A DNA stretch of 38,577 nt. It comes from Candidatus Dadabacteria bacterium (GTDB lineage Bacteria; Desulfobacterota_D; UBA1144; Nemesobacterales; Mycalebacteriaceae). The notes beneath the pieces are model-generated. The model was not told the DNA's origin, made no database searches, and was given only the letters and a program-made list of their open reading frames with translations. The translations under genes were made by a program, and so were the position numbers. Below are positions 191-34,308 of this stretch, in pieces. The stretch spans positions 1 to 38,577 of the forward strand of contig JAPOUR010000035.1 in assembly GCA_026708565.1 (NCBI GenBank). Direction: 5' to 3'. How positions within the stretch are numbered: position 1 is the first letter of the stretch; each line of letters starts with the position of its first letter.

Positions 191-218
191 TTGACAGGTT
201 GGCGGGCGGACATATAGA
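191..218 (+). promoter_or_regulatory. Promoter of TAA1 (TTGACA-N16-TATAGA)
   Basis: A perfect -35 TTGACA (191-196) is followed after 16 bp by TATAGA (213-218). The same block, TTGACAGGTTGGCGGG, occurs upstream of TAA3 at 18922 with an N16 spacer and TAGAAT as the -10. Conservation of both hexamers and the spacer between two otherwise diverged upstream regions supports a real sigma-70-type promoter. Transcription from here would produce the structured leader that follows. Confidence 0.75.
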
Positions 219-221
219 GTA

Positions 222-376
222 GCCACCGTGAACATCAAACTTATACATAAGGTTGTCCCTGCTGGGTCTCTGTTACTCATAGAAGACCCACGAAAGCGGG
301 AAAAGGTGCAGACCTTCTAGACTTTATGTATAGGATGTTCACACGGCCCGGCGCCGAGAGTGTCAGGCCGAAGGAG
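222..376 (+). promoter_or_regulatory. Structured 5' leader RNA of TAA1
   Basis: The leader folds as a long closing stem with two inner hairpins, then a separate hairpin at the ribosome binding site. P1: GAACATC 230-236 with GATGTTC 334-340, continued by TATACATAA 242-250 with TTATGTATA 324-332. P2: TCCC 256-259 with GGGA 298-301, GC 261-262 with GC 296-297, and TGGGTCT 263-269 with AGACCCA 284-290. P3: AAGGT 303-307 with ACCTT 312-316. The last hairpin (GGCC 345-348 with GGCC 366-369, GGCGC 350-354 with GTGTC 360-364 using G-U pairs) ends 1 nt before the AAGGAG ribosome binding site at 371-376. TAA3 has the same fold built from different bases. I do not recognise it as a known riboswitch class. 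Its role (ligand sensing, temperature sensing or RNA stability) is unknown. Confidence 0.7.
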
Positions 377-385
377 AATTGACCA

Positions 386-3300
386 ATGAGAAAATCATTG
401 ACACAAACTTTTTTGACGGCGGCTTTTCTGGTTGTCGGAATGGTATCGCAAGCGGGGGCGCGGGGTTGGAGCGTTGGGCCGCACTCAAGCGCCTCCGGAA
501 CAAGAGCGACTGCGGTCGGGGATTGGACAATGGCCAATGGCTATGAGTCAACGGCGGTTGGGCATAAGGCGATGACGCCCGGACATAATTCAACAGCATT
601 GGGTAAGGGGGCATTGGCGGGGAGATTTATTTCCTATACTCGTTATCATGAGGAGGTTCGGCATGGTTATGATGGTTCTCCTGACTTCGAAGGAGTGGAG
701 ATTGTAGAATGCACAGTCTTCGGTTATCCGTTGACTGGTTTGAAGCGTTGCACTGTCCGCATTCCCGAGACTGCCTACTATCAAGCGAACTCAAACTCCA
801 GTGCAATCGGTCATAAGGCAAGGGCTACAGGTGACGACACGGTAGCATTGGGCCACATGGCAAATGCCAGTTATCACCACTCAACCGTTCTTGGCGCATT
901 GGCAAGCGCAACCGGCAACGGCGCAATCGCCATAGGGCGCGGAGTGTCCGCTGGAGAGAATCAAATCCGCATTGGCAACTCTTCTTATACCGATGTTTTC
1001 ATAGGCGCTTACAATCTTGCCGACCTTTCTGGCTCCGGCTCAAACTCCGCCGATGTCAGGAGGATAATCAGGGAAGAAACAGGGGAAGATAGAATTATAG
1101 ATGAGGCGATTGATACAGTAGTCAACAGAGATGTCATTAAAGACGCAACCGCCACCGGAATAAGTGCCACCGCATTCGGCGAAGACTCAAACGCGAGCGG
1201 AGACTATTCCGCCGCTTATGGCTATAACGCTTTTGCGGGAGGAATGAACGCCATAGCAATCGGAGCGGAGTCACGGGCAAACGGCGACAATGCCATAGCA
1301 ATCGGGCGCGGTATAGTCGCCAATGCCGGACAAATCCGTATCGGCGATTTGGCAATTACAGATGTAACAATCGGCAACTACTCTTTAGCCGCATTAGCGA
1401 GCGGTATATCCGCTAATAGTGGCGGTGGCGGCAGTCCGGCCCCCGCAAGAGATTGGAGCGAAGATATAAGAAGGGCGGTCGGCTACACAAGAGAACCGCG
1501 AGGCTACAACGCCGCCGCTTTCGGTAACGGGGCAAAGGCAAGAGGCGCGTATTCAACCGCGCTTGGGGTGAATGCCGTAGCGGGTGTTAACGCCTCGGCG
1601 GTTGGGCAAGCGGCACAAGCCACCGGCAGACAGTCAACGGCGGTTGGGCAGGATGCAAAAGCCGCCGGAGACGGGGCAACCGCCGTTGGGCAAAATGCAA
1701 ACGCAAGGGGAGAGGGTTACAGTTTGGGGTCTTTCCATCGCGGTTCAACGGCATTGGGTCAAGGCGCAAACGCAAGCGGACTTGCATCCACCGCCATAGG
1801 TTCAGATGTTCTGGCAAGCGGCATGAAGGCAACCGCCGTTGGAGCGGAATCACGGGCAAGAGGGGCGCTTTCAACCGCTTTCGGAGCGGAGGCAAAATCG
1901 TCCGGCAGAGCGTCTGTTTCCATAGGTCAGGAATCTTTTGCGAGAGGGGCTTTCTCAACTGCGGTTGGTCAAAATGCGCTTGCCACAAGAGACAACACAG
2001 TAGCGGTGGGCTATTCCGCAACCGCAAGCGAGAGAGACGCTATAGCCATTGGAGCGCAAGCGGTGGCGGAAGGAGAGCAAGCAACGGCGGTTGGTATGAG
2101 AGCATGGGCGCATATGAAAGCGTCAACTGCGCTTGGAGTTCACGCAAACGCCTTTGGAGATTCTTCAACCGCGCTTGGTCAGGGGGCGCGTTCAGAAGGC
2201 GATTCATCATCGGCATTGGGTCATGAGGCAAATGCCACAGGGCCTTCCTCAACCGCAATCGGACAGGCGGCACATGCGACCGGAAACCATTCATCTGCAT
2301 TCGGACAGGGGGCGGAAGCGAGCGGGCAAAGTTCAACCGCATTGGGACAGACGGCAATGGCTGCGGGTAATGATTCAACAGCGGCGGGCAGGGAAGCGTG
2401 GGCGCACATGAAAGCGTCAACTGCTCTTGGGGCGTATGCTAACGCCTCTAAAGATTCCTCAACCGCATTGGGGCAGGGAGCGGAGGCTTTTGGTGTCTCG
2501 TCATCTGCATTGGGACATGCGGCCCATGCAAACGCGGTTTCCTCAACCGCAATCGGAGAGGCGGCACAATCTACCGGAAACTATTCTGCGGCATTGGGGC
2601 AGGGAGCGGTCGCAAGCGGGCAGAGTTCAACCGCATTGGGACAGACGGCAATGGCGGCGGGTAATGATTCAACAGCGGCGGGCAGGGAAGCGTGGGCGCA
2701 CATGAAAGCGTCAACTGCTCTTGGGGCGTATGCTAACGCCTCCAAAGATTCATCAACCGCATTGGGGCAGGGGGCGGAGGCGTTAGGCGTGTCATCATCT
2801 GCATTGGGACATGCGGCCCATGCAAACGCGGTTTCTTCAACCGCAATCGGAGAAGCGGCACAGGCAACCGGAAACTATTCTGCGGCATTGGGGCAGGGAG
2901 CGGTCGCGAGCGGGCAGAGTTCAACCGCATTGGGGCAGACGGCAATGGCGGCGGGTAATGATTCAACAGCGGCGGGAAGGGAAGCATGGGCGCACATGAA
3001 AGCGTCAACCGCTCTTGGGGCGTATGCAAACGCATCCGCAGATTCATCAACTGCGCTTGGGCAAGGGGCTATGGCGTTTGGCGAAGCATCATCTGCATTG
3101 GGTAAGGCGGCCCTTGCAAACGGGCAATCCTCAACCGCAATCGGAGAGGCGGCACAGGCGACCGGAGACCTTTCTGCGGCATTCGGGCAGGGGGCGATTG
3201 CAAGCGGAAAGAACGCTACCGCATTAGGGCAAAGCGCACAGGCAACAGGCAATTTCTCATCTGCATTGGGTCAATCTGCGGAAGCCACACAAGAGTTTGC

Positions 3301-4765
3301 AACTGCTCTTGGAACTAAAGCGGTTGCCACCGGGGAACGCACGGTTGCGGTCGGTTCTTCAGCGGAAGCGACTGGTAACAGAGCAGTTGCGGTCGGTTTT
3401 ATGTCGGTTGCGGGAGGAGAGAATGCTTCCGCAGTCGGGCAGAATGCGGAGGCGGATGGCAATGACGCAACGGCGGTTGGGCAGTTTGCGCAGGCTACGG
3501 GGAACGGGTCAACCGTTGTTGGCAGGGGGACACTTGCCGACCAAGCAAACGCAACAGTAGTTGGTTACTTGGCAAAAGCGGAAGGCCGAAACGCAACGGT
3601 GTTAGGCAAAGGGGCATATTCTATTCAGCGTGATAATGTTGCCCTCGGTCACTTGGCAAATGTGGAAGCAAAAGACGCCGTTGCCGTTGGAGCGGAGGCG
3701 TATGTAGGCAGAGAGGGCGGAATTGCCATTGGCTACGGCACTATCGCAAACGGGCTTGACAGCATAGCAATCGGGCGTGATGTGTCCACTACCGAAGCCA
3801 GACAAATCCGCATAGGCAACAGTCAGACGGATGCTTGGGTTGGAATCTACAGTTTGAACGCCCTTGCCAATGCCGCCGGTTTTGACGCTCAAGCGGAATA
3901 TGAACGGAGACAGTTGGATGAAAAAGAGGATGAGGATGACGGCATGGGTAGTCCTCCCCGTCTTCCTGAACCGCGCCGTCCCGCAATTCAAAGCGGCATT
4001 GAAACCGCCTCATTGCCGACCGTTCGGGGAGCGGAAGCGGTAACGCCGGTTGCTCCGGCTGGCGGTGTGGGAATGAACGACCCTATTCGCGCTACTAATG
4101 CCGGGACAATGTCTTCGGCGCAGGGTGTGGATTCAACGGCTATCGGCCACATGGCGGGGGCGGGGGGCTCCGGAGCGACTGCTATCGGCTCAAACACAAA
4201 TGCCGGAACCTCAGGGGTGGCTATCGGTTATAACGCAGAGGCGGACGGCACTGGTAGCGTTGCAATAGGGATTAATTCATTGGCGCAAGGCGATGGTGGC
4301 GGCGTTGCAATCGGGTATGGCGTGAAATTGGGACGCAATGATGATATCGCCATCGGTCAAGCCTCTGATAGAAATGTGCGTATAGGCGCATACGACCTTG
4401 AGGATATAGACGACCGCATCGGTTCAAGAACCGACCGCGCAAGCGCCACCGGAAGCGCACACGCCCGTATCAACGACCACGAAGACCGACTTGGCTTCGT
4501 TGAAAGTGAACTCGGCAAATTTCAACGGAGCGATAAGCGTTACAACAAGGGTATCGCTATGGCAATGGCTCAGGGAGCCCTCTATGTTGAGCCGGGCAAG
4601 CGGGCAACCGTTGGTTTGTCTCATGCCGGTTACAGGGGCGAACACGGCATGGCCGCAAGTTTCGGGGTTCGCGTAAATGAGCAAATCCAAGTTCATTTCA
4701 GCGGGGCAACGGATACCGGCTTTGACGAAAAGGGAATTAAATCGGGGATTCAATTCTCATGGTGA
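386..4765 (+). CDS. Trimeric autotransporter adhesin TAA1 (YadA-like head repeats and anchor), 1459 aa
   Basis: Surface adhesin of the trimeric autotransporter (type Vc) family. It starts at ATG 386 behind AAGGAG (371-376). Residues 1-25 are a signal peptide (MRKSLTQTF..., ending SQAGA). Most of the protein is left-handed beta-roll head repeats of 14 residues, of the form STAIGxxAxAxGxx. Connector motifs QIRIG-x(4-5)-TDV-x-IG-x-Y-x-L recur near residues 193, 315 and 1136. Residues 79-133 form a non-repeat insert with two cysteines. Residues about 573-964 are four near-identical 98-residue units. An acidic and proline-rich linker (KEDEDDG...PPRLPEPRRP) precedes the last heads. A short coiled segment and about 90 residues (YNKGIAMAMAQGAL... 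to terminal FSW) match the YadA anchor, which supplies four strands per chain to a trimeric barrel. The binding target cannot be told from sequence. Confidence 0.9.
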   Translation: MRKSLTQTFLTAAFLVVGMVSQAGARGWSVGPHSSASGTRATAVGDWTMANGYESTAVGHKAMTPGHNSTALGKGALAGRFISYTRYHEEVRHGYDGSPDFEGVEIVECTVFGYPLTGLKRCTVRIPETAYYQANSNSSAIGHKARATGDDTVALGHMANASYHHSTVLGALASATGNGAIAIGRGVSAGENQIRIGNSSYTDVFIGAYNLADLSGSGSNSADVRRIIREETGEDRIIDEAIDTVVNRDVIKDATATGISATAFGEDSNASGDYSAAYGYNAFAGGMNAIAIGAESRANGDNAIAIGRGIVANAGQIRIGDLAITDVTIGNYSLAALASGISANSGGGGSPAPARDWSEDIRRAVGYTREPRGYNAAAFGNGAKARGAYSTALGVNAVAGVNASAVGQAAQATGRQSTAVGQDAKAAGDGATAVGQNANARGEGYSLGSFHRGSTALGQGANASGLASTAIGSDVLASGMKATAVGAESRARGALSTAFGAEAKSSGRASVSIGQESFARGAFSTAVGQNALATRDNTVAVGYSATASERDAIAIGAQAVAEGEQATAVGMRAWAHMKASTALGVHANAFGDSSTALGQGARSEGDSSSALGHEANATGPSSTAIGQAAHATGNHSSAFGQGAEASGQSSTALGQTAMAAGNDSTAAGREAWAHMKASTALGAYANASKDSSTALGQGAEAFGVSSSALGHAAHANAVSSTAIGEAAQSTGNYSAALGQGAVASGQSSTALGQTAMAAGNDSTAAGREAWAHMKASTALGAYANASKDSSTALGQGAEALGVSSSALGHAAHANAVSSTAIGEAAQATGNYSAALGQGAVASGQSSTALGQTAMAAGNDSTAAGREAWAHMKASTALGAYANASADSSTALGQGAMAFGEASSALGKAALANGQSSTAIGEAAQATGDLSAAFGQGAIASGKNATALGQSAQATGNFSSALGQSAEATQEFATALGTKAVATGERTVAVGSSAEATGNRAVAVGFMSVAGGENASAVGQNAEADGNDATAVGQFAQATGNGSTVVGRGTLADQANATVVGYLAKAEGRNATVLGKGAYSIQRDNVALGHLANVEAKDAVAVGAEAYVGREGGIAIGYGTIANGLDSIAIGRDVSTTEARQIRIGNSQTDAWVGIYSLNALANAAGFDAQAEYERRQLDEKEDEDDGMGSPPRLPEPRRPAIQSGIETASLPTVRGAEAVTPVAPAGGVGMNDPIRATNAGTMSSAQGVDSTAIGHMAGAGGSGATAIGSNTNAGTSGVAIGYNAEADGTGSVAIGINSLAQGDGGGVAIGYGVKLGRNDDIAIGQASDRNVRIGAYDLEDIDDRIGSRTDRASATGSAHARINDHEDRLGFVESELGKFQRSDKRYNKGIAMAMAQGALYVEPGKRATVGLSHAGYRGEHGMAASFGVRVNEQIQVHFSGATDTGFDEKGIKSGIQFSW
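2103..3278 (+). repeat. Four tandem 294-bp units inside TAA1
   Basis: Units begin at 2103, 2397, 2691 and 2985, each exactly 294 bp (98 codons, or seven 14-residue head repeats). Each opens with AWAHMKASTALG. The second and third units are almost identical, and the first and fourth have drifted. The repeat is in frame, so gain or loss of a unit changes adhesin length by 98 residues without breaking the gene. Assemblies of this region may have collapsed or expanded copies. Confidence 0.9.
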
Positions 4766-4775
4766 AACGCCACCT
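4475..4775 (+). repeat. 301-bp segment shared with the 3' end of TAA2
   Basis: Bases 4475-4775 match 5728-6028 with a single difference (C at 4498, T at 5751). The segment covers the last 96 codons, the stop and the first 10 bases after it. Farther upstream the two genes are similar but clearly diverged, which points to recent duplication or gene conversion limited to the anchor-coding end. Confidence 0.9.
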
Positions 4776-4834: not shown

Positions 4835-4876
4835 CCCCTCTGGATTCCTTGTCGGAGCAAGGAATGGCGAGAGGGG
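4835..4876. repeat. REP-like palindrome, copy 2 (extended stem)
   Basis: Core ATTCCTTG 4844-4851 with CAAGGAAT 4858-4865, flanked by an outer pair CCCCTCT 4835-4841 with AGAGGGG 4870-4876. It lies between the TAA1 terminator and TAA2. It is in the opposite orientation to copy 1, as judged by the TGGATTCC flank. Confidence 0.8.
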
Positions 4877-4947
4877 GATTGGATAAACTTACAATCATTG
4901 AAACATCCGGTATCAAAGCCGAGAAACTCTCAAAGGAGGGAGAAAAA

Positions 4948-6018
4948 ATGAGAAAAGAACTGATAACATTTCTCGTGGCGGTGTTGCTGTTTGCCCCGCA
5001 AGCGGAGGCGACTAATGCCATAGGACGAAGCGCGTTCGCAAACGGACTTGACGCAATCGTAATTGGTCGTGATTTGTCAGCCGAAAGAGAGCAAATCCGC
5101 ATAGGTGACAGTCAGACGAATGTTTGGGTTGGAATCTACAGTTTGAACGCCCTTGCCAATGCCGCCGGTTTTGACGCTCAAGCGGAATATGAACGGAGAC
5201 AGTTGGAGGAAAAAGAGGATGAGGATGATGGAATGGGTAGTCCTCCCCGTCTTCCAGAACCGCGCCGTCCCGCAATTCAAAGCGGTATTGACACCGCCTC
5301 ACTGCCGACTGTCCGGGGAGCGGAAGCGGTAACGCCGATTGCTCCGGCTGGCGGTGTGGGGATAGGCACGGGAGTCCGCGCTACTAATGCCGGGATAATG
5401 TCTTCGGCGCAGGGTTCAGATTCAGTGGCTTTCGGCCACAGCGCATTGGCGGCAAGCGCTGCAACGGCTATCGGGTCAAACACAAATGCCGGAACCGACG
5501 GGGTGGCTATCGGTTATAACGCAGAGGCGGATGGTAGTGGCGGCGTTGCAATCGGGGTTAATTCATTGGCGCAAGGCGGTGGCGGCATTGCAATCGGGCA
5601 TGGTGTGAAATTGGGACGCAATGATGATATCGCCATCGGTGAAGCCTCTGATAGAAATGTGCGTATCGGCGCATACGACTTTCGGGCAATGAACGCCACC
5701 ATAGACACCAACACAAGAGACATAGCCGACCACGAAGACCGACTTGGCTTTGTTGAAAGTGAACTCGGCAAATTTCAACGGAGCGATAAGCGTTACAACA
5801 AGGGTATCGCTATGGCAATGGCTCAGGGAGCCCTCTATGTTGAGCCGGGCAAGCGGGCAACCGTTGGTTTGTCTCATGCCGGTTACAGGGGCGAACACGG
5901 CATGGCCGCAAGTTTCGGGGTTCGCGTAAATGAGCAAATCCAAGTTCATTTCAGCGGGGCAACGGATACCGGCTTTGACGAAAAGGGAATTAAATCGGGG
6001 ATTCAATTCTCATGGTGA
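4948..6018 (+). CDS. Short trimeric autotransporter adhesin TAA2, 356 aa
   Basis: A compact paralogue of the C-terminal part of TAA1. I chose ATG 4948 because AAAGGAGGG (4932-4940) sits just upstream and the first 21 residues (MRKELITFLVAVLLF..., ending PQAEA) form a signal peptide; the frame is open farther upstream but through the palindromic repeat. Two short head blocks flank the QIRIG...IYSLNAL connector and the same acidic, proline-rich linker as TAA1. The last 95 residues (the anchor) are identical to those of TAA1. It has almost no projecting head, so it may be a minimal surface protein, a partner of TAA1 in the membrane, or a truncated copy. No structured leader like those of TAA1 and TAA3 precedes it, and no convincing promoter was seen in 4826-4947. 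Confidence 0.85.
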   Translation: MRKELITFLVAVLLFAPQAEATNAIGRSAFANGLDAIVIGRDLSAEREQIRIGDSQTNVWVGIYSLNALANAAGFDAQAEYERRQLEEKEDEDDGMGSPPRLPEPRRPAIQSGIDTASLPTVRGAEAVTPIAPAGGVGIGTGVRATNAGIMSSAQGSDSVAFGHSALAASAATAIGSNTNAGTDGVAIGYNAEADGSGGVAIGVNSLAQGGGGIAIGHGVKLGRNDDIAIGEASDRNVRIGAYDFRAMNATIDTNTRDIADHEDRLGFVESELGKFQRSDKRYNKGIAMAMAQGALYVEPGKRATVGLSHAGYRGEHGMAASFGVRVNEQIQVHFSGATDTGFDEKGIKSGIQFSW

Positions 6019-6043
6019 AACGCCACCTGTAGCGACATCTCCT

Positions 6044-18616: not shown

Positions 18617-18638
18617 GTTCCTTGCTACGACAAGGAAT
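18617..18638. repeat. REP-like palindrome, copy 3
   Basis: TTCCTTG - CTACGA - CAAGGAA, 20 bp upstream of the next copy and in the same orientation. The two form a tandem pair right after nadE. Confidence 0.8.
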
Positions 18639-18658
18639 CCAGTCCCTTTCTCCCCGTC

Positions 18659-18680
18659 ATTCCTTGCTACGACAAGGAAT
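18659..18680. repeat. REP-like palindrome, copy 4
   Basis: ATTCCTTG - CTACGA - CAAGGAAT, followed by CCAGAGGGGGCGGGG exactly as at copy 1. The shared right flank shows that the repeat unit is longer than the palindrome. Confidence 0.85.
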
Positions 18681-18712
18681 CCAGAGGGGGCGGGGCATTG
18701 TCAAGGGATGAC

Positions 18713-18810
18713 AGCGTTGGAAATTGTGTTTCCAGCGTTGGAATCTGAGGTTTCAGCGTTAGAAATTGTGCTTCCAGCGTTGGAATCTGAGGTTTTAGCG
18801 TTAGAAATTC
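18713..18810. repeat. 21-bp minisatellite (4.7 units)
   Basis: Units start at 18713, 18734, 18755, 18776 and 18797, each beginning AGCGTT(G/A)GAA. Odd and even units differ (AAATTGTG against ATCTGAGG), so the higher-order period is 42 bp. One frame reads as heptads (ALEIVFP, ALESEVS and so on), but no gene start supports translation. Confidence 0.85.
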
Positions 18811-18921: not shown

Positions 18922-18949
18922 TTGACAGGTTGGCGGGTAGCCGTAGAAT
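18922..18949 (+). promoter_or_regulatory. Promoter of TAA3 (TTGACA-N16-TAGAAT)
   Basis: TTGACA 18922-18927, a 16-bp spacer and TAGAAT 18944-18949. The -35 and first half of the spacer are identical to the TAA1 promoter. CCTGTC 18911-18916 and GACAGG 18924-18929 form an inverted repeat across the -35 that could be an operator. The TAA1 copy has only a distant CTGTCA in a similar place, so this is weak. Confidence 0.8.
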
Positions 18950-18951
18950 GG

Positions 18952-19094
18952 TCGCTGTTAGTCAGTCTTAATTTAGTGCAATCCCTGTCGGGTTTCTGTT
19001 TTAATGCAAGACCCACGGGAAATAGAGCAGACCTCTAATGCACTAGTTAGACGGCTAACAAGGCCCGATGTCAAAAGATGTCGGGTCAAAGGAG
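18952..19094 (+). promoter_or_regulatory. Structured 5' leader RNA of TAA3
   Basis: Same architecture as the TAA1 leader, built from different bases. P1: GTTAGTC 18957-18963 with GGCTAAC 19053-19059, GTCT 18965-18968 with AGAC 19049-19052, and TAGTGCA 18974-18980 with TGCACTA 19039-19045. P2: TCCC 18982-18985 with GGGA 19017-19020, GT 18987-18988 with AC 19015-19016, and GGGTTT 18990-18995 with AGACCC 19009-19014. P3: TAGAG 19023-19027 with CTCTA 19033-19037. Last hairpin: CCCGATGTC 19064-19072 with GATGTCGGG 19077-19085 around an AAAA loop, then AAAGGAG at 19088-19094. The fixed bases are in P2 and its loop (CTGTT) and around GCAGACC; the closing stem is wholly changed but still pairs. Confidence 0.7.
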
Positions 19095-19103
19095 AATTGA
19101 GCA

Positions 19104-22100
19104 ATGAAAAAATCATTGACACAAACTTTTTTAACGGCGGCTTTTCTGATTGTCGGAGTGGTATCGCAAGCGGGGGCGCAGGGGTCAACGGGCTATAACG
19201 CAGGAGCGGGGTCGGTTGCGGGTAACGGCGCAGTTGCCATAGGTGTAAATGCGGGCGCAAAGGCAGAGTTTGTTCATCCCCGTAGGCATTTCTTTGGGGG
19301 AGTTGCTATTGGTCAGGAGGCAAATGCTAGCCAGTGGTCTTCAGTGGCTATCGGCGTGTTGACAAGGGCAAATAGAGGGGCAACTGCTATCGGCGATAGT
19401 GCAACTGCTATCGGCGGGGGTTCAACTGCTATCGGCCCTTCGGCAATTAGCACAGGTGATGGTTCAACTGCTATCGGCTCTCATGCAAATAGTGTGGCTT
19501 TTACTTCAACTGCTATCGGTCATTTGGCAACTAGTATAGGTGATTCTTCAATTGCTATTGGCTGGCATGCACGTAGTATTGGCGGGAGTTCAACTGCTAT
19601 CGGTCATTCGACAACTAGCACAGGTAATTTTTCAACTGCTATGGGCTATCAGGCAAGGGCTACCAAACAGGGAGCAATAGCCATTGGTGGGGGTGGTGCG
19701 CCTTACAATTCTATTTTGAGGCGCAGAGTTCTCAGAGGCGCATTCGCGGAAGATGCCATAGCAATCGGTTATCTGTCATACGCTTCCGCAAACGGGGCTG
19801 TTGCTCTTGGCGGCGGAGCGAGTGCTACCGGCTTAAACTCCATAGCAATCGGGCATGAGACATCCGCCGAGTATGGACAAATCCGCATAGGGCATTCCAT
19901 TCATGACGATGTAACAATCGGCAACTACTCTTTAGCCGATTTTGCGGGGAAAGCGTCACTCAACGCCGCTCAGATTAAGCAACAGCGGGAATATGAGCAA
20001 TACATAGCACAAGTCCGCAATGCCGCCGAAACACAATGGGAAGAAGAAATTAAAAAGGCGGTCGGCTACACAAGAGAGCCACGCGGAGACAACGCCGCCG
20101 CATTCGGAAACGGGGCAAAAGCGCGGGGCGAGTTTTCAACCGCTTTGGGGGTTAGGTCAACGGCAAGCGACCATTCAACCGCAATCGGACAGGCGGCTAA
20201 CGCGAGCGGCTACAACTCAACCGCAATCGGCAAAGACGCTTACGCTTTCACTTACGCAACGGCGGTAGGCGCAAACGCAAACGCGAGCGGCTACAACTCA
20301 ACCGCTTTCGGGGCTGATATAACGGCGAGCGGGTCTAACTCAATCGCCATAGGGCATTTTTCGGAAGCGAGCGGACACAACTCAACAGTAGTAGGGTCGG
20401 GGGCGCATGCGGACGATTACTTTGCTACAAGTTTGGGCTGGCACTCAAACGCGGTAGCCAACTCCTCAAGCGCAATAGGCGCTTTTACATTCGCGGGTAA
20501 TCTGGCTTCAACGGCGGTAGGCGTAAGCGCACGCGCCCTCGCTCCTTTGTCAACCGCCGTAGGGTCGGGTTCAGCCGCACAAACCGAACAGTCAACGGCG
20601 GTCGGTGTAGCGGCAGTAGCGGGATTATCTCCGGCACGGGGAGTAAATCCGGGACGCAACACATCGGCTTTCGGTATGCGGGCTTATGCGTATGAGAATG
20701 ACGCAACGGCTATAGGTCATCAGTCAAGGGCTTACGGCGTAAAATCAACGGCGGTCGGTCAGGGAGCATTGACAGGCACAAGAAAAATAAACTCCACCGC
20801 CATCGGCGCAAGTTCACACGCATCAGGACACAGGACAACGGCATTAGGCGCGTATGCCAATGCGGTCGGGGATCGTTCCACCGCTTTGGGGGCTAACTCC
20901 TATGCCGAGGGGTATGATTCAACCGCCCTCGGCGCGTATGCCAATGCGGAAAGAGAAACCTCAACGGCAATCGGCTATTCGGCATTGGCAAATCATACGC
21001 GATCGGTGGCGATAGGTTTTGAGGCAAACGCTCTCAGGGGTTCAGCAACGGCAGTAGGCGCTAATGCACATGCAGCCAGCAGCGCAGTGGCTATAGGCAG
21101 ATTTGCACGGGCGCTTTCAGCTAACACTATTGCCATAGGTGACAGTTCATTGTCCACCTTTGGAATCAATTCAGTGGCGATAGGTCAGAGGGTATACGTG
21201 GAGGGACAGGACTCAACGGCAATCGGGTCAAATTCGGTGGCAAGAGGGCAGTTTTCAACGGCGGTAGGTCAGAGCGCGAAAGCCGATCATTGGCAAGCCA
21301 CCGCAATCGGTCAGAATGCGAAAGCGACACAGCAATGGTCAACCGCAGTAGGTCAGGAGTCAAACGCGATACAGCAATGGGCAACCGCAATAGGTCAGGC
21401 GGCGGAAGCAACGAAGGAACAGGCAACCGCAGTAGGGCAGTATGCGCGGGCATTGGGAACGGAAGCAACGGCGGTAGGTCAGCAGACTTACGCAAAGGGC
21501 GATGGTTCAACGGCGGTAGGTCAGGCGGCTAATGTGCAAAACGCAAGGTCAACTGTTATCGGACAGGGGGCTTATGCGAAACGGACAGATGCCGTTGCCG
21601 TAGGACAGTCGGCGAGAGCAAACGGCATACAATCATCGGTGGTCGGACAGGCGGCTTATGCAACCGGACCTCAAAGTGTCGCTCTTGGTTGGTCGGCAAG
21701 TGTGAACACAACAGACGCCATTGCCATTGGAGCGGGGGCAAAGGTTTATGGGGATAGAACATTGGGCATTGGCGAGGGTATCGGCGCAATCGCCATAGGG
21801 CGGAATGCCATAGCAACCGGAGATGACGCAATAGCCATAGGGCGTAATGTTCGTGCCGACGAAAATGAAACTCTGGGCGGTCAAATCCGTATAGGGCATG
21901 CAAACCAAACCGATGTGCGGATTGGTAACTACAGCCTCAATGTTTTGTTTAACAGAGTGTCAAGCCCCGCCCGTATTCCCCAACCGCCACGCCCCCCGAT
22001 TCAAAGCGGGGTTGATGGTGCTTCCGCAAGGGCAAAAAGTCCGGTTGCAACGGCTGGCGGTCTGCATGTAATAGACACATCTACTAACTCCGAGGGCGCA

Positions 22101-22733
22101 AATGCGGATTTTGATGATGATACTGCCATTGGTGTCCGTGCGCGGACTGTTGGAGTAGGCGGAGTGGCAATCGGATACAACACAGTAGCGGGTGAAGATT
22201 CAGTTGTCATTGGGCGTAACATTTCCAGTGGCGGTAATAGCATTGCCATTGCCGCAGAGGATGCCGCCGGTATCCGTCTTGGCAAATTCCGGCTTGATAA
22301 TGACCTCGGACAAATGGGCGACCCTGACAACCGCCCGACAACTGCCCATGCCCGTATCACTGATACACGGGAAAACATGATCGGCTCTATTGACGATGCC
22401 GCCGAAAACAATGATACAAGTAGCGTTCATGCCCGTATCAATCACACGCAACAGGACATTGGCAATCTCCGCTCTGAGATTGGCAATCTCCGCTCCGAAG
22501 TCGGCAGGGCTGACAAGGGGGCTGTTATGGCTATGGCTATGGAAGCCCCTTATGTTCCGACAGACAAACGGGCAACTGTCGGTATGTCTCATGCCGCATA
22601 CAGAGGGGAACACGGCATAGCCGCAAGTTTCGGTGTTCGCGTAAATGAGAAGGTGCAAGTCCATTTCAGCGGGGCAACAGACACCGGATTTGATGAGAAG
22701 GCAATCAAATCAGGATTCCAATTCACTTGGTAA
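19104..22733 (+). CDS. Trimeric autotransporter adhesin TAA3, 1209 aa
   Basis: Same family and secretion route as TAA1. The first 25 residues (MKKSLTQTFLTAAF..., ending SQAGA) differ from the TAA1 signal at few positions. ATG 19104 follows AAAGGAG. Two head regions of 14-residue repeats are separated by a charged helical stretch near 287-326 (QIKQQREYEQYIAQ) and the connector AVGYTREPRG, also present in TAA1. Short inserts break the first head (FVHPRRHFFGG and NSILRRRVLRG). A proline-rich linker (RIPQPPRPPIQSG) precedes the last heads. A stalk with the doublet GNLRSEIGNLRSEV leads into the anchor (DKGAVMAMAMEAP... ending FQFTW). The heads lack the 98-residue tandem units of TAA1. Confidence 0.9.
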   Translation: MKKSLTQTFLTAAFLIVGVVSQAGAQGSTGYNAGAGSVAGNGAVAIGVNAGAKAEFVHPRRHFFGGVAIGQEANASQWSSVAIGVLTRANRGATAIGDSATAIGGGSTAIGPSAISTGDGSTAIGSHANSVAFTSTAIGHLATSIGDSSIAIGWHARSIGGSSTAIGHSTTSTGNFSTAMGYQARATKQGAIAIGGGGAPYNSILRRRVLRGAFAEDAIAIGYLSYASANGAVALGGGASATGLNSIAIGHETSAEYGQIRIGHSIHDDVTIGNYSLADFAGKASLNAAQIKQQREYEQYIAQVRNAAETQWEEEIKKAVGYTREPRGDNAAAFGNGAKARGEFSTALGVRSTASDHSTAIGQAANASGYNSTAIGKDAYAFTYATAVGANANASGYNSTAFGADITASGSNSIAIGHFSEASGHNSTVVGSGAHADDYFATSLGWHSNAVANSSSAIGAFTFAGNLASTAVGVSARALAPLSTAVGSGSAAQTEQSTAVGVAAVAGLSPARGVNPGRNTSAFGMRAYAYENDATAIGHQSRAYGVKSTAVGQGALTGTRKINSTAIGASSHASGHRTTALGAYANAVGDRSTALGANSYAEGYDSTALGAYANAERETSTAIGYSALANHTRSVAIGFEANALRGSATAVGANAHAASSAVAIGRFARALSANTIAIGDSSLSTFGINSVAIGQRVYVEGQDSTAIGSNSVARGQFSTAVGQSAKADHWQATAIGQNAKATQQWSTAVGQESNAIQQWATAIGQAAEATKEQATAVGQYARALGTEATAVGQQTYAKGDGSTAVGQAANVQNARSTVIGQGAYAKRTDAVAVGQSARANGIQSSVVGQAAYATGPQSVALGWSASVNTTDAIAIGAGAKVYGDRTLGIGEGIGAIAIGRNAIATGDDAIAIGRNVRADENETLGGQIRIGHANQTDVRIGNYSLNVLFNRVSSPARIPQPPRPPIQSGVDGASARAKSPVATAGGLHVIDTSTNSEGANADFDDDTAIGVRARTVGVGGVAIGYNTVAGEDSVVIGRNISSGGNSIAIAAEDAAGIRLGKFRLDNDLGQMGDPDNRPTTAHARITDTRENMIGSIDDAAENNDTSSVHARINHTQQDIGNLRSEIGNLRSEVGRADKGAVMAMAMEAPYVPTDKRATVGMSHAAYRGEHGIAASFGVRVNEKVQVHFSGATDTGFDEKAIKSGFQFTW

Positions 22734-22815: not shown

Positions 22816-22833
22816 GACTGGAAAGAGGACTGG

Positions 22834-22855
22834 ATTCCTTGTCGTAGCAAGGAAT
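22834..22855. repeat. REP-like palindrome, copy 5
   Basis: ATTCCTTG - TCGTAG - CAAGGAAT, in the opposite orientation to copies 1, 3 and 4. It closes the TAA3 region on its right side, so TAA3 is bracketed by inverted copies of the repeat. Confidence 0.85.
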
Positions 22856-33039: not shown

Positions 33040-34308
33040 ATGAGTGAAGAGAAATTGACAGCGGAAGAGTATTTGAAGCGGGGGTATGACAAGTTTAATT
33101 CCAAGCAATACGAAGAGGCGATTGCGGATTATAGCAAAGCCATTGAAGTTAATCCTCAGTATGCGGAATCCTACAACAATCGGGGCATTGCCAAAGCAAG
33201 GCTTGGGCAGTATTTAGAAGCGATTGAAGATTTTAATAAAGCAATTGAACTTAGTCCTGAGTACGGTGATGCGTATATCAACCGGGGCAATGCCGAAATG
33301 GAAATTGGTCAGTATCAGGAAGCGATTGCGGATTATGGTAAAGCCATTGAACTCAATCCTCAGGATGCCTATGCCTACTACAACCGAGGCAATGCCGAAT
33401 CAAGACTTGGTCGGTATCGGGAAGCGATTGAGAATTACAGCAAATCTATTGAAATAGATTCTCAGGATGCCGAAGTCTACACAAACCGAGGCAATGCCAA
33501 ATCAGGACTTGGTTGGTATCAGGAGGCTATTGAGGATTATAATAAAGCCATTGAACTCAATCCTCGCCATGCCGAAGCCTATCTTAACCGAGGTGCTGCC
33601 AAGTCAATTCTTGGGCTGAATTCGGAAGTGATTGAAGATTGTAATAAAGCCATTGAACTCAATCCTCAGGATGCCTATGCCTACTACAACCGAGGTGAGG
33701 CTTACAGCAGATTAGGAGAAAAGGAGAACGCTCTTAAGGATTTTAAAAAAGTACAGGAACTTGATCCAACAGTTATGGGGAGAGTAGAAGCCAAAAAAGC
33801 CACTGACCCTCTGCAGAGGGAAATCAAAGAGACTGGAGAAAAAGTAAAAGAAACTAAGGAGTTTCAGAAAGTTTTCAAAGACTTGAGAAATACTTATGAA
33901 AAGACAAGTGCTATATGGTTTTTACTTTCTGTCTTTATGGTGATTTTAACTTCTATAGCATTCTTGTGTGCTCCAAAATTAGCAAATCAATATGAATCTC
34001 TTGAAAAAGTTCCTTTTTTGTTCTATGGCATATACATATTTTTAACTTCAGTAACTTTTATTGTGATTCGTCGGTTCACTAATGTAGAAGAGATTGATTT
34101 GGAGTCTGATAATCGTCTTGCTATGGCGAAATTGTTTGAGTTTATAGTTCAAACTCCGGATTTACGGGAGAAATATGGTGACCTTATCCCACAACTCGCT
34201 GATGCTATGATTTACAGCATGTATAAGAAATCAAGAACAGAGAAGAGCAGTAATTTTGTTTTACAGGAAATCAAAGACGGGATGAAAGACAGAGGTATCT
34301 CTAAATGA
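33040..34308 (+). CDS. TPR protein with two C-terminal transmembrane segments, 422 aa
   Basis: Seven tandem 34-residue TPR repeats (YNNRGIAKARLGQYLEAI and similar) cover residues about 5-243; the DNA shows the matching 102-bp period. A coiled, lysine- and glutamate-rich linker follows. Two hydrophobic helices, near 291-312 and 324-343, should anchor the protein in the inner membrane. A soluble tail of about 80 residues ends IKDGMKDRGISK. TPR domains bind partner proteins, but none can be named. AGGAGAG precedes the ATG, 15 bp after the nuclease gene, and the stop overlaps the next start by 4 bp. It is clearly AT-richer than the core genes. A membrane TPR protein is unusual between restriction-modification genes. 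Confidence 0.85.
   Translation: MSEEKLTAEEYLKRGYDKFNSKQYEEAIADYSKAIEVNPQYAESYNNRGIAKARLGQYLEAIEDFNKAIELSPEYGDAYINRGNAEMEIGQYQEAIADYGKAIELNPQDAYAYYNRGNAESRLGRYREAIENYSKSIEIDSQDAEVYTNRGNAKSGLGWYQEAIEDYNKAIELNPRHAEAYLNRGAAKSILGLNSEVIEDCNKAIELNPQDAYAYYNRGEAYSRLGEKENALKDFKKVQELDPTVMGRVEAKKATDPLQREIKETGEKVKETKEFQKVFKDLRNTYEKTSAIWFLLSVFMVILTSIAFLCAPKLANQYESLEKVPFLFYGIYIFLTSVTFIVIRRFTNVEEIDLESDNRLAMAKLFEFIVQTPDLREKYGDLIPQLADAMIYSMYKKSRTEKSSNFVLQEIKDGMKDRGISK

Follow-up and report, generated by a model that had tools for sequence, protein, structure and literature searches.

Two trimeric autotransporter adhesin genes with long structured leaders, TAA1 and TAA3, lie in the window, by which we mean the whole 38,577-nucleotide stretch of Candidatus Dadabacteria DNA that was analysed (Table 1). 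Both leaders have good sigma-70-like promoters. The TAA1 leader (222-385) folds with a z score of -5.33 relative to dinucleotide shuffles and the TAA3 leader (18944-19103) with a z score of -6.05, and in each case none of 200 shuffles folded as well. BLASTN against the source genome located a third leader upstream of another TAA gene (G000:C5:27644-27912). Folded independently, it keeps the overall shape with a closing stem that differs from those of TAA1 and TAA3, and compensation therefore spans three paralogues, not two. Two TAA genes of the same genome keep only the hairpin (P4) and Shine-Dalgarno part, and the genome contains both TAA paralogues that have the P1 domain and others that lack it.

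A short adhesin ORF, TAA2 (4849-6018), has no covariance-model match and thus no copy of the leader RNA. Its C-terminal part is 81% identical to TAA1, and a 300-bp stretch that is 100% identical in the two genes (4474-4773 and 5727-6026) suggests recent gene conversion. A palindromic interspersed repeat, ATTCCTTGCTCCGACAAGGAATCCAG, flanks the adhesin genes in five copies (99-124, 4840-4865, 18617-18642, 18659-18684 and 22830-22855) and recurs upstream of the genome's remaining adhesin loci. A tandem 21/42-bp repeat (CAGCGTTGGAA...) occupies 18712-18809, directly upstream of the TAA3 promoter region. Elsewhere in the window, the ORF at 33040-34308 contains six 102-bp direct repeats (34 codons, TPR-like) at 33106-33717.

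Table 1. Leader RNA features and adhesin genes in the window, with the third leader domain of the source genome.
Feature	Position	Strand	Evidence or relation
TAA1 promoter, TTGACA (191-196) and TAGAGT (215-220)	191..220	+	10/12 matches; 7 bases upstream of P1
TAA1 leader RNA domain (P1 and core)	228..342	+	z -5.33; covariance model R2 85 bits, E 2.3e-15
TAA1 P1 outer strand, 5' side	228..236	+	pairs with 334-342
TAA1 P2a 5' side, CCTGCT	258..263	+	pairs with AGCGGG 295-300; folds; compensation in three TAA leaders
TAA1 S1, GCTGGGTC	261..268	+	complementary to S2 345-352, partly to S4 ACCC 286-289
TAA1 pseudoknot 5' half, TCTGT	269..273	+	pairs with 308-312
TAA1 pseudoknot 3' half, GCAGA	308..312	+	pairs with 269-273
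TAA1 P1 outer strand, 3' side	334..342	+	P1 covariation; pairs with 228-236
TAA1 P4 hairpin; 5' side holds S2 GGCCCGGC (345-352)	344..370	+	folding
TAA1 Shine-Dalgarno, AAGGAG	371..376	+	sequence
TAA1, trimeric autotransporter adhesin with signal peptide	386..4765	+	Pfam YadA_head E 2e-145
TAA3 promoter, TTGACA-16-TAGAAT	18922..18949	+	11/12 matches
TAA3 leader RNA domain (P1 and core)	18957..19059	+	z -6.05; covariance model R2 84.6 bits
TAA3 S1, GTCGGGTT	18987..18994	+	pseudoknot/stem pairing analysis
TAA3 pseudoknot 5' half, TCTGT	18995..18999	+	pairing analysis
TAA3 pseudoknot 3' half, GCAGA	19027..19031	+	pairing analysis
TAA3 P4 hairpin	19062..19087	+	fold
TAA3 Shine-Dalgarno, AAAGGAG	19088..19094	+	
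TAA3, trimeric autotransporter adhesin with signal peptide	19104..22733	+	Pfam YadA_head E 2.5e-111
Third leader domain	G000:C5:27680-27794		same fold obtained independently

Read from its 5' end, the RNA begins with the 5' strand of P1 (16-23 nt), a two-base junction, CCC, and GC with a few further bases. S1 (GUCGGGUC), the pseudoknot half UCYGY, GAAUANAA, S4 (ACCC), GGG and AAAUAA follow, then the second pseudoknot half GCRGA, ACNUC, the 3' strand of P1 and AA. S2 (GGCCCGRC) lies inside P4 and is followed by the Shine-Dalgarno sequence and the start codon. The conserved core consists of CCCGC, GUCGGGUC, AAUANAA, ACCC, GGGAAAUAA and the pseudoknot UCYGY/GCRGA, with GAAUANAA and GGGAAAUAA as conserved single-stranded motifs. 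In TAA1, the outer pairs of P1 are continued by TTATACATAAGGTT, which pairs with GACTTTATGTATAG.

The closing helix is under clear covariation. Its outer seven pairs are 100% paired in 17 sequences, with two-sided changes at six of them, and its 19 pairs taken together are 96.2% paired, as compared to 83.7% in shuffles and less than 48% in any slid register. In a tree-based null test, in which alignments preserving the tree and its substitutions were used to rank about 2000 column pairs, P1 supplied seven of the top eight, six of them with E <= 0.053, and the eighth was pair 3 of the pseudoknot (E 0.6), the highest covarying pair outside P1. The pseudoknot is standard in 92 of 95 cells across 19 sequences, a level reached by none of 2000 strand shuffles. 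Two-sided changes occur at four of its five pairs (1, 2, 3 and 5), and its variants are UCUGU/GCAGA, UCCGU/GCGGA, UCCGC/GCGGA, UGCGU/ACGCA and CCCGC/GCGGG. P2 changes in a matched manner among the three TAA leaders (CCUGCU/AGCGGG, CCUGU/ACGGG and CCUGUC/GACGGG), and P4 is retained beside the Shine-Dalgarno sequence with changed bases, including in the two TAA genes without a P1 domain. No covariation was found for P2b (S1:S4). P3 was rejected as a general feature, being present only in the TAA copies, where GCAGA sits in its loop. The leader has a conserved structured core with covariation within a 5' UTR, as riboswitches do.

An earlier note on the window had proposed that TAA1 and TAA3 carry structured leaders with compensating changes in four stems, and most of that proposal is borne out. 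The structures are real and are shared by a third copy; the compensation holds for the closing stem, for P2 and for the hairpin that keeps its shape beside the ribosome binding site, and there is significant covariation, in P1, with support for the pseudoknot. P3 does not generalize. The leader placed at 222-376 has its first P1 base at 228 rather than 222. The patches CTGTT and GCAGACC are indeed conserved, and correspond for the most part to the two strands of a pseudoknot that the note had missed.

Homologues were sought with three covariance models of increasing size. R1, built from three sequences and run over 44 genomes of the order, returned two more copies in the source genome and copies in other genomes; its low-scoring matches in G005, G017, G024, G030:C58 and G037 lack the core and were dismissed as chance. 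With R2 (nine sequences, E <= 0.01), 29 places were found, spread over 14 of the 58 genomes searched in the phylum and confined to two genera. R3 (17 sequences), searched over 387 genomes of 317 genera, placed the element in 15 genomes of the same two Dadabacteria genera and, with three matches, in G290, a single unrelated genome; homologues of the kind that the note had asked to be searched for do exist. About 20 intact and 10 decayed copies occur in the 15 Dadabacteria genomes, which represent two of 22 genera. The G290 copies share the architecture, with a long P1, GUCGGGCU, a CCCGC/GCGGG pseudoknot and then AACGGCCCGG. At the G290 loci L075, L077 and L078, truncated copies of the element adjoin a gene fragment that is itself repeated, a pattern that segmental duplication in that genome could have produced. 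A sequence-pattern search of genome contigs gave four loci, all from Candidatus Dadabacteria, and scans of viral contigs gave no match.

No Rfam 15 family matched the window or eight homologue loci above its gathering threshold, in agreement with the note, which had recognised no common riboswitch pattern. Permissive thresholds yielded only chance matches, with best sub-threshold E values of 0.5-3. The best Rfam match in two copies was sRNA-Xcc1 (RF02221), at 19.5 and 25.4 bits against a gathering threshold of 53; with E of about 0.6 it was treated as chance. A literature search for Dadabacteria and riboswitches returned nothing relevant. With homologues, covariation and no Rfam family, none of the three outcomes that the note had listed as refuting its proposal came about. 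We conclude that the leader is almost certainly a new, uncatalogued class of RNA.

The position of the element relative to the promoter is nearly constant. Counted back from the first P1 base, the best -10 hexamer is at exactly 13 bases in 13 of 20 copies and at 12-14 bases in 17 of 20, among upstream sequences that are largely unrelated; in L033, L035 and L050 the best hexamer lies elsewhere, and the distant G290 copies have no evident -10 box. This constant spacing predicts that transcription starts within one base of P1, so that the first P1 pair would open the mRNA and almost no free 5' end would be left. In TAA1, the first base of the domain (228) approximately coincides with the predicted start. 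A helix therefore stands at or near a transcription start predicted from -10 boxes, as in 5'-terminal stabilisers. That the distance from P1 to the predicted start is constant while P1 varies freely in sequence and length suggests that selection acts to keep the 5' end paired.

The genes downstream share a destination. By a simple hydrophobicity rule, the downstream protein is exported (signal sequence or lipoprotein) in 20 of 21 readable cases, whereas none of 18 other window ORFs is so classed under the same rule, or one of 18 if TAA2 started at an internal ATG (MRKELITFLVAVLLFAPQAEA). The start codons of L035, L050 and L067 were picked by hand. The count includes L039, with a decayed 5' half, and omits the near-identical L051, broken downstream genes (L033, L037) and truncated elements (L040, L048, L053, L055 and others). 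The sole non-exported target is a DNA methyltransferase ORF, downstream of the intact copy L028. At least nine targets look like lipoproteins; the set includes one OMP_b-brl protein and the two window trimeric autotransporters. The description of the leader as standing in front of adhesin genes thus holds for the TAA genes and is too narrow for the class, in which most targets are lipoproteins or other exported proteins. In intact copies the start codon lies some 20-60 nt beyond the model end. Exported-protein mRNAs are predicted to open with this conserved RNA, which would take up their first 100-115 nt or so.

The leader also behaves as a unit that is present or absent before related genes, with near-identical units before unrelated genes. 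L031 (in G010) and L032 (in G014) share 98.6% identity along 138 bp. The match opens one base ahead of the predicted start and runs to 24-25 bases past the model end, whereas the flanks and genes of the two are unrelated. In L033 and L037, a signal-like frame after the leader stops at about 15 codons (MRRFIV-TSGAVL-stop); here the leader outlives its gene.

Sharply bounded, near-identical copies such as L031 and L032, as well as decayed and truncated ones, could also be produced by a MITE-like DNA repeat with terminal inverted repeats that has no role as RNA. We consider this the least likely of the explanations weighed here. The arms vary yet stay complementary, with G-U pairs, and the interior is conserved, which is the reverse of a transposon; the element stands in sense orientation before genes at a fixed distance from the promoter. 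Conserved terminal inverted repeats were not found, the arms covarying instead. Scarcely more probable is a processive antitermination RNA analogous to put or EAR, which would act on RNA polymerase from the transcript 5' end. The leader does lie at the predicted 5' end and some targets are long (adhesins of 3.6-4.4 kb), but most targets are short single genes of 68-492 codons and no Rfam family of this type was matched.

The functions suggested by the earlier note fared less well than its structures. It had considered it plausible that the leader switches adhesin output by masking the ribosome binding site. In folding models, mean Shine-Dalgarno accessibility over 16 leaders is 0.242 with the domain and 0.246 without it, and the P1 domain folds on its own. 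A transcription attenuator was rejected, as neither the TAA1 nor the TAA3 leader has an intrinsic terminator on the sense strand, and no U run longer than three follows P4 in 13 of 14 leaders. The note had also named c-di-GMP as a candidate ligand. c-di-GMP is the usual adhesion signal, and its riboswitches (GEMM and c-di-GMP-II) often govern surface and adhesion genes. Neither family has an Rfam match in the scanned leader copies, and all 16 element-bearing genomes, G290 included, lack any GGDEF protein, which makes c-di-GMP very unlikely as the ligand. By comparison, four Dadabacteria relatives of other genera without the element (G003, G005, G007 and G017) have one to six GGDEF proteins each. 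G042, which belongs to the same genus as element carriers, also lacks GGDEF proteins. It is possible that presence of the element is linked to lost c-di-GMP signalling, or that both merely accompany genome reduction. Taken together, the unchanged accessibility and the lack of terminators and GGDEF proteins leave hiding of the ribosome binding site, attenuation and c-di-GMP sensing unsupported.

A further feature is the complementarity of S1 and S2, which holds in every sequence (136 of 136 cells). Three of its eight pairs change on both sides, and none of 500 shuffles reached this level. It was not significant in the tree-based null test; with the two tests in disagreement, S1:S2 is a candidate pairing. 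S1 may pair with S4 or S2, and S2 with S1 or S3, as mutually exclusive options. In the minimum free energy fold of 18 of 18 leaders, S2 pairs downstream to form P4, and the nested S1:S2 fold costs 10-34 kcal/mol because P1 has to open. A plain alternative hairpin is ruled out on energy. For TAA1, a pseudoknot crossing P1 would leave about 6 nt to bridge more than 20 bp, which seems impossible on steric grounds. S1:S2 may act as a switch or as a contact between RNA molecules, or may be a by-product.

Known RNAs offer two lines of comparison. P1-closed pseudoknotted riboswitches such as SAM-II, preQ1 and c-di-GMP-II combine a variable closing helix with a conserved core in a 5' UTR. The leader resembles them in all of these respects and in its pseudoknot, but differs in lacking an Rfam match, an evident expression platform and a shared metabolic pathway, and in having P1 flush with the predicted transcription start. 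The second comparison is with 5' hairpins that hinder RppH and stabilise mRNA, for which the ompA, papA and aprE 5' elements, all from mRNAs of surface or secreted proteins, are cited as cases (PMC3997798). Like these, the leader has a paired 5' end at its (predicted) start and precedes genes for exported proteins, theirs encoding outer-membrane, pilus or secreted proteins. In contrast, their hairpins are simple, with neither a conserved pseudoknotted core nor a regulon that spans a family, and stabilisation has been shown for them.

By analogy with these elements, our preferred reading, to which we give somewhat less than an even chance, is that the leader acts as a 5'-terminal clamp, a factor-recognised protector of exported-protein mRNAs. 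Its blunt paired end would block 5'-end-dependent decay enzymes of the RppH/RNase E or RNase J type, and surface and secreted-protein mRNAs would live longer as a result. The pseudoknotted core would be recognised by a putative ligand or protein, other than c-di-GMP, that tunes protection; alternatively, such recognition would join the exported-protein mRNAs into one regulon. The lack of a terminator and the unchanged Shine-Dalgarno accessibility fit decay-type control, and in the TAA genes without P1, P4 lies within a few bases of the predicted start, which we count in favour. A protector alone needs neither the roughly 35 conserved core bases nor the pseudoknot, which leaves the factor half of the model unsupported; the core must do more, and from this we infer recognition by a ligand or protein. 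Counting against the clamp are the methyltransferase target of L028, the S1:S2 complementarity, a start that is only predicted, and the copies (L033, L035, L050 and those of G290) whose -10 hexamer is out of place or not evident.

The main rival of the clamp is a riboswitch for some metabolite, in which a P1-closed pseudoknotted aptamer would control a surface-protein regulon with P4 as expression platform. The compact core, variable P1, pseudoknot and 5' UTR location favour it, and S1:S2, complementary throughout while S2 also forms P4, is switch-like. We nevertheless judge it unlikely, given that there is no terminator, that the domain does not affect Shine-Dalgarno accessibility, that the nested S1:S2 state is costly, that the targets have export and not a pathway in common, and that c-di-GMP is excluded in all probability by the absence of GGDEF proteins. 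Slightly less likely again is a dedicated site for an RNA-binding protein, either a translational regulator or an mRNA-targeting factor, that would co-ordinate exported-protein mRNAs. The conserved single-stranded GAAUANAA and GGGAAAUAA, targets that share a destination and not a biochemistry, and several leader copies per genome all accord with such a site for a putative protein; against it, no genetic linkage was seen. An improbable but broader possibility is that the unit from the start to the end of P4 is an exchangeable 5' module, passed from gene to gene, that would mark exported-protein mRNAs in bacteria that have lost c-di-GMP signalling. Via a putative factor, and perhaps through S1:S2 contacts between different leaders, it would control the decay or membrane targeting of much of the surface proteome.

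The leader class is probably an RNA device that controls surface display in these bacteria. This structured RNA is uncatalogued, covaries strongly and stands before an unusually coherent set of exported and surface-protein targets; that one unrelated genome also carries it suggests horizontal transfer or a distribution broader than is seen so far. It offers a handle on surface-protein control in bacteria without c-di-GMP, and a case in which the possible influence of a conserved 5'-terminal RNA on mRNA lifetime can be tested.
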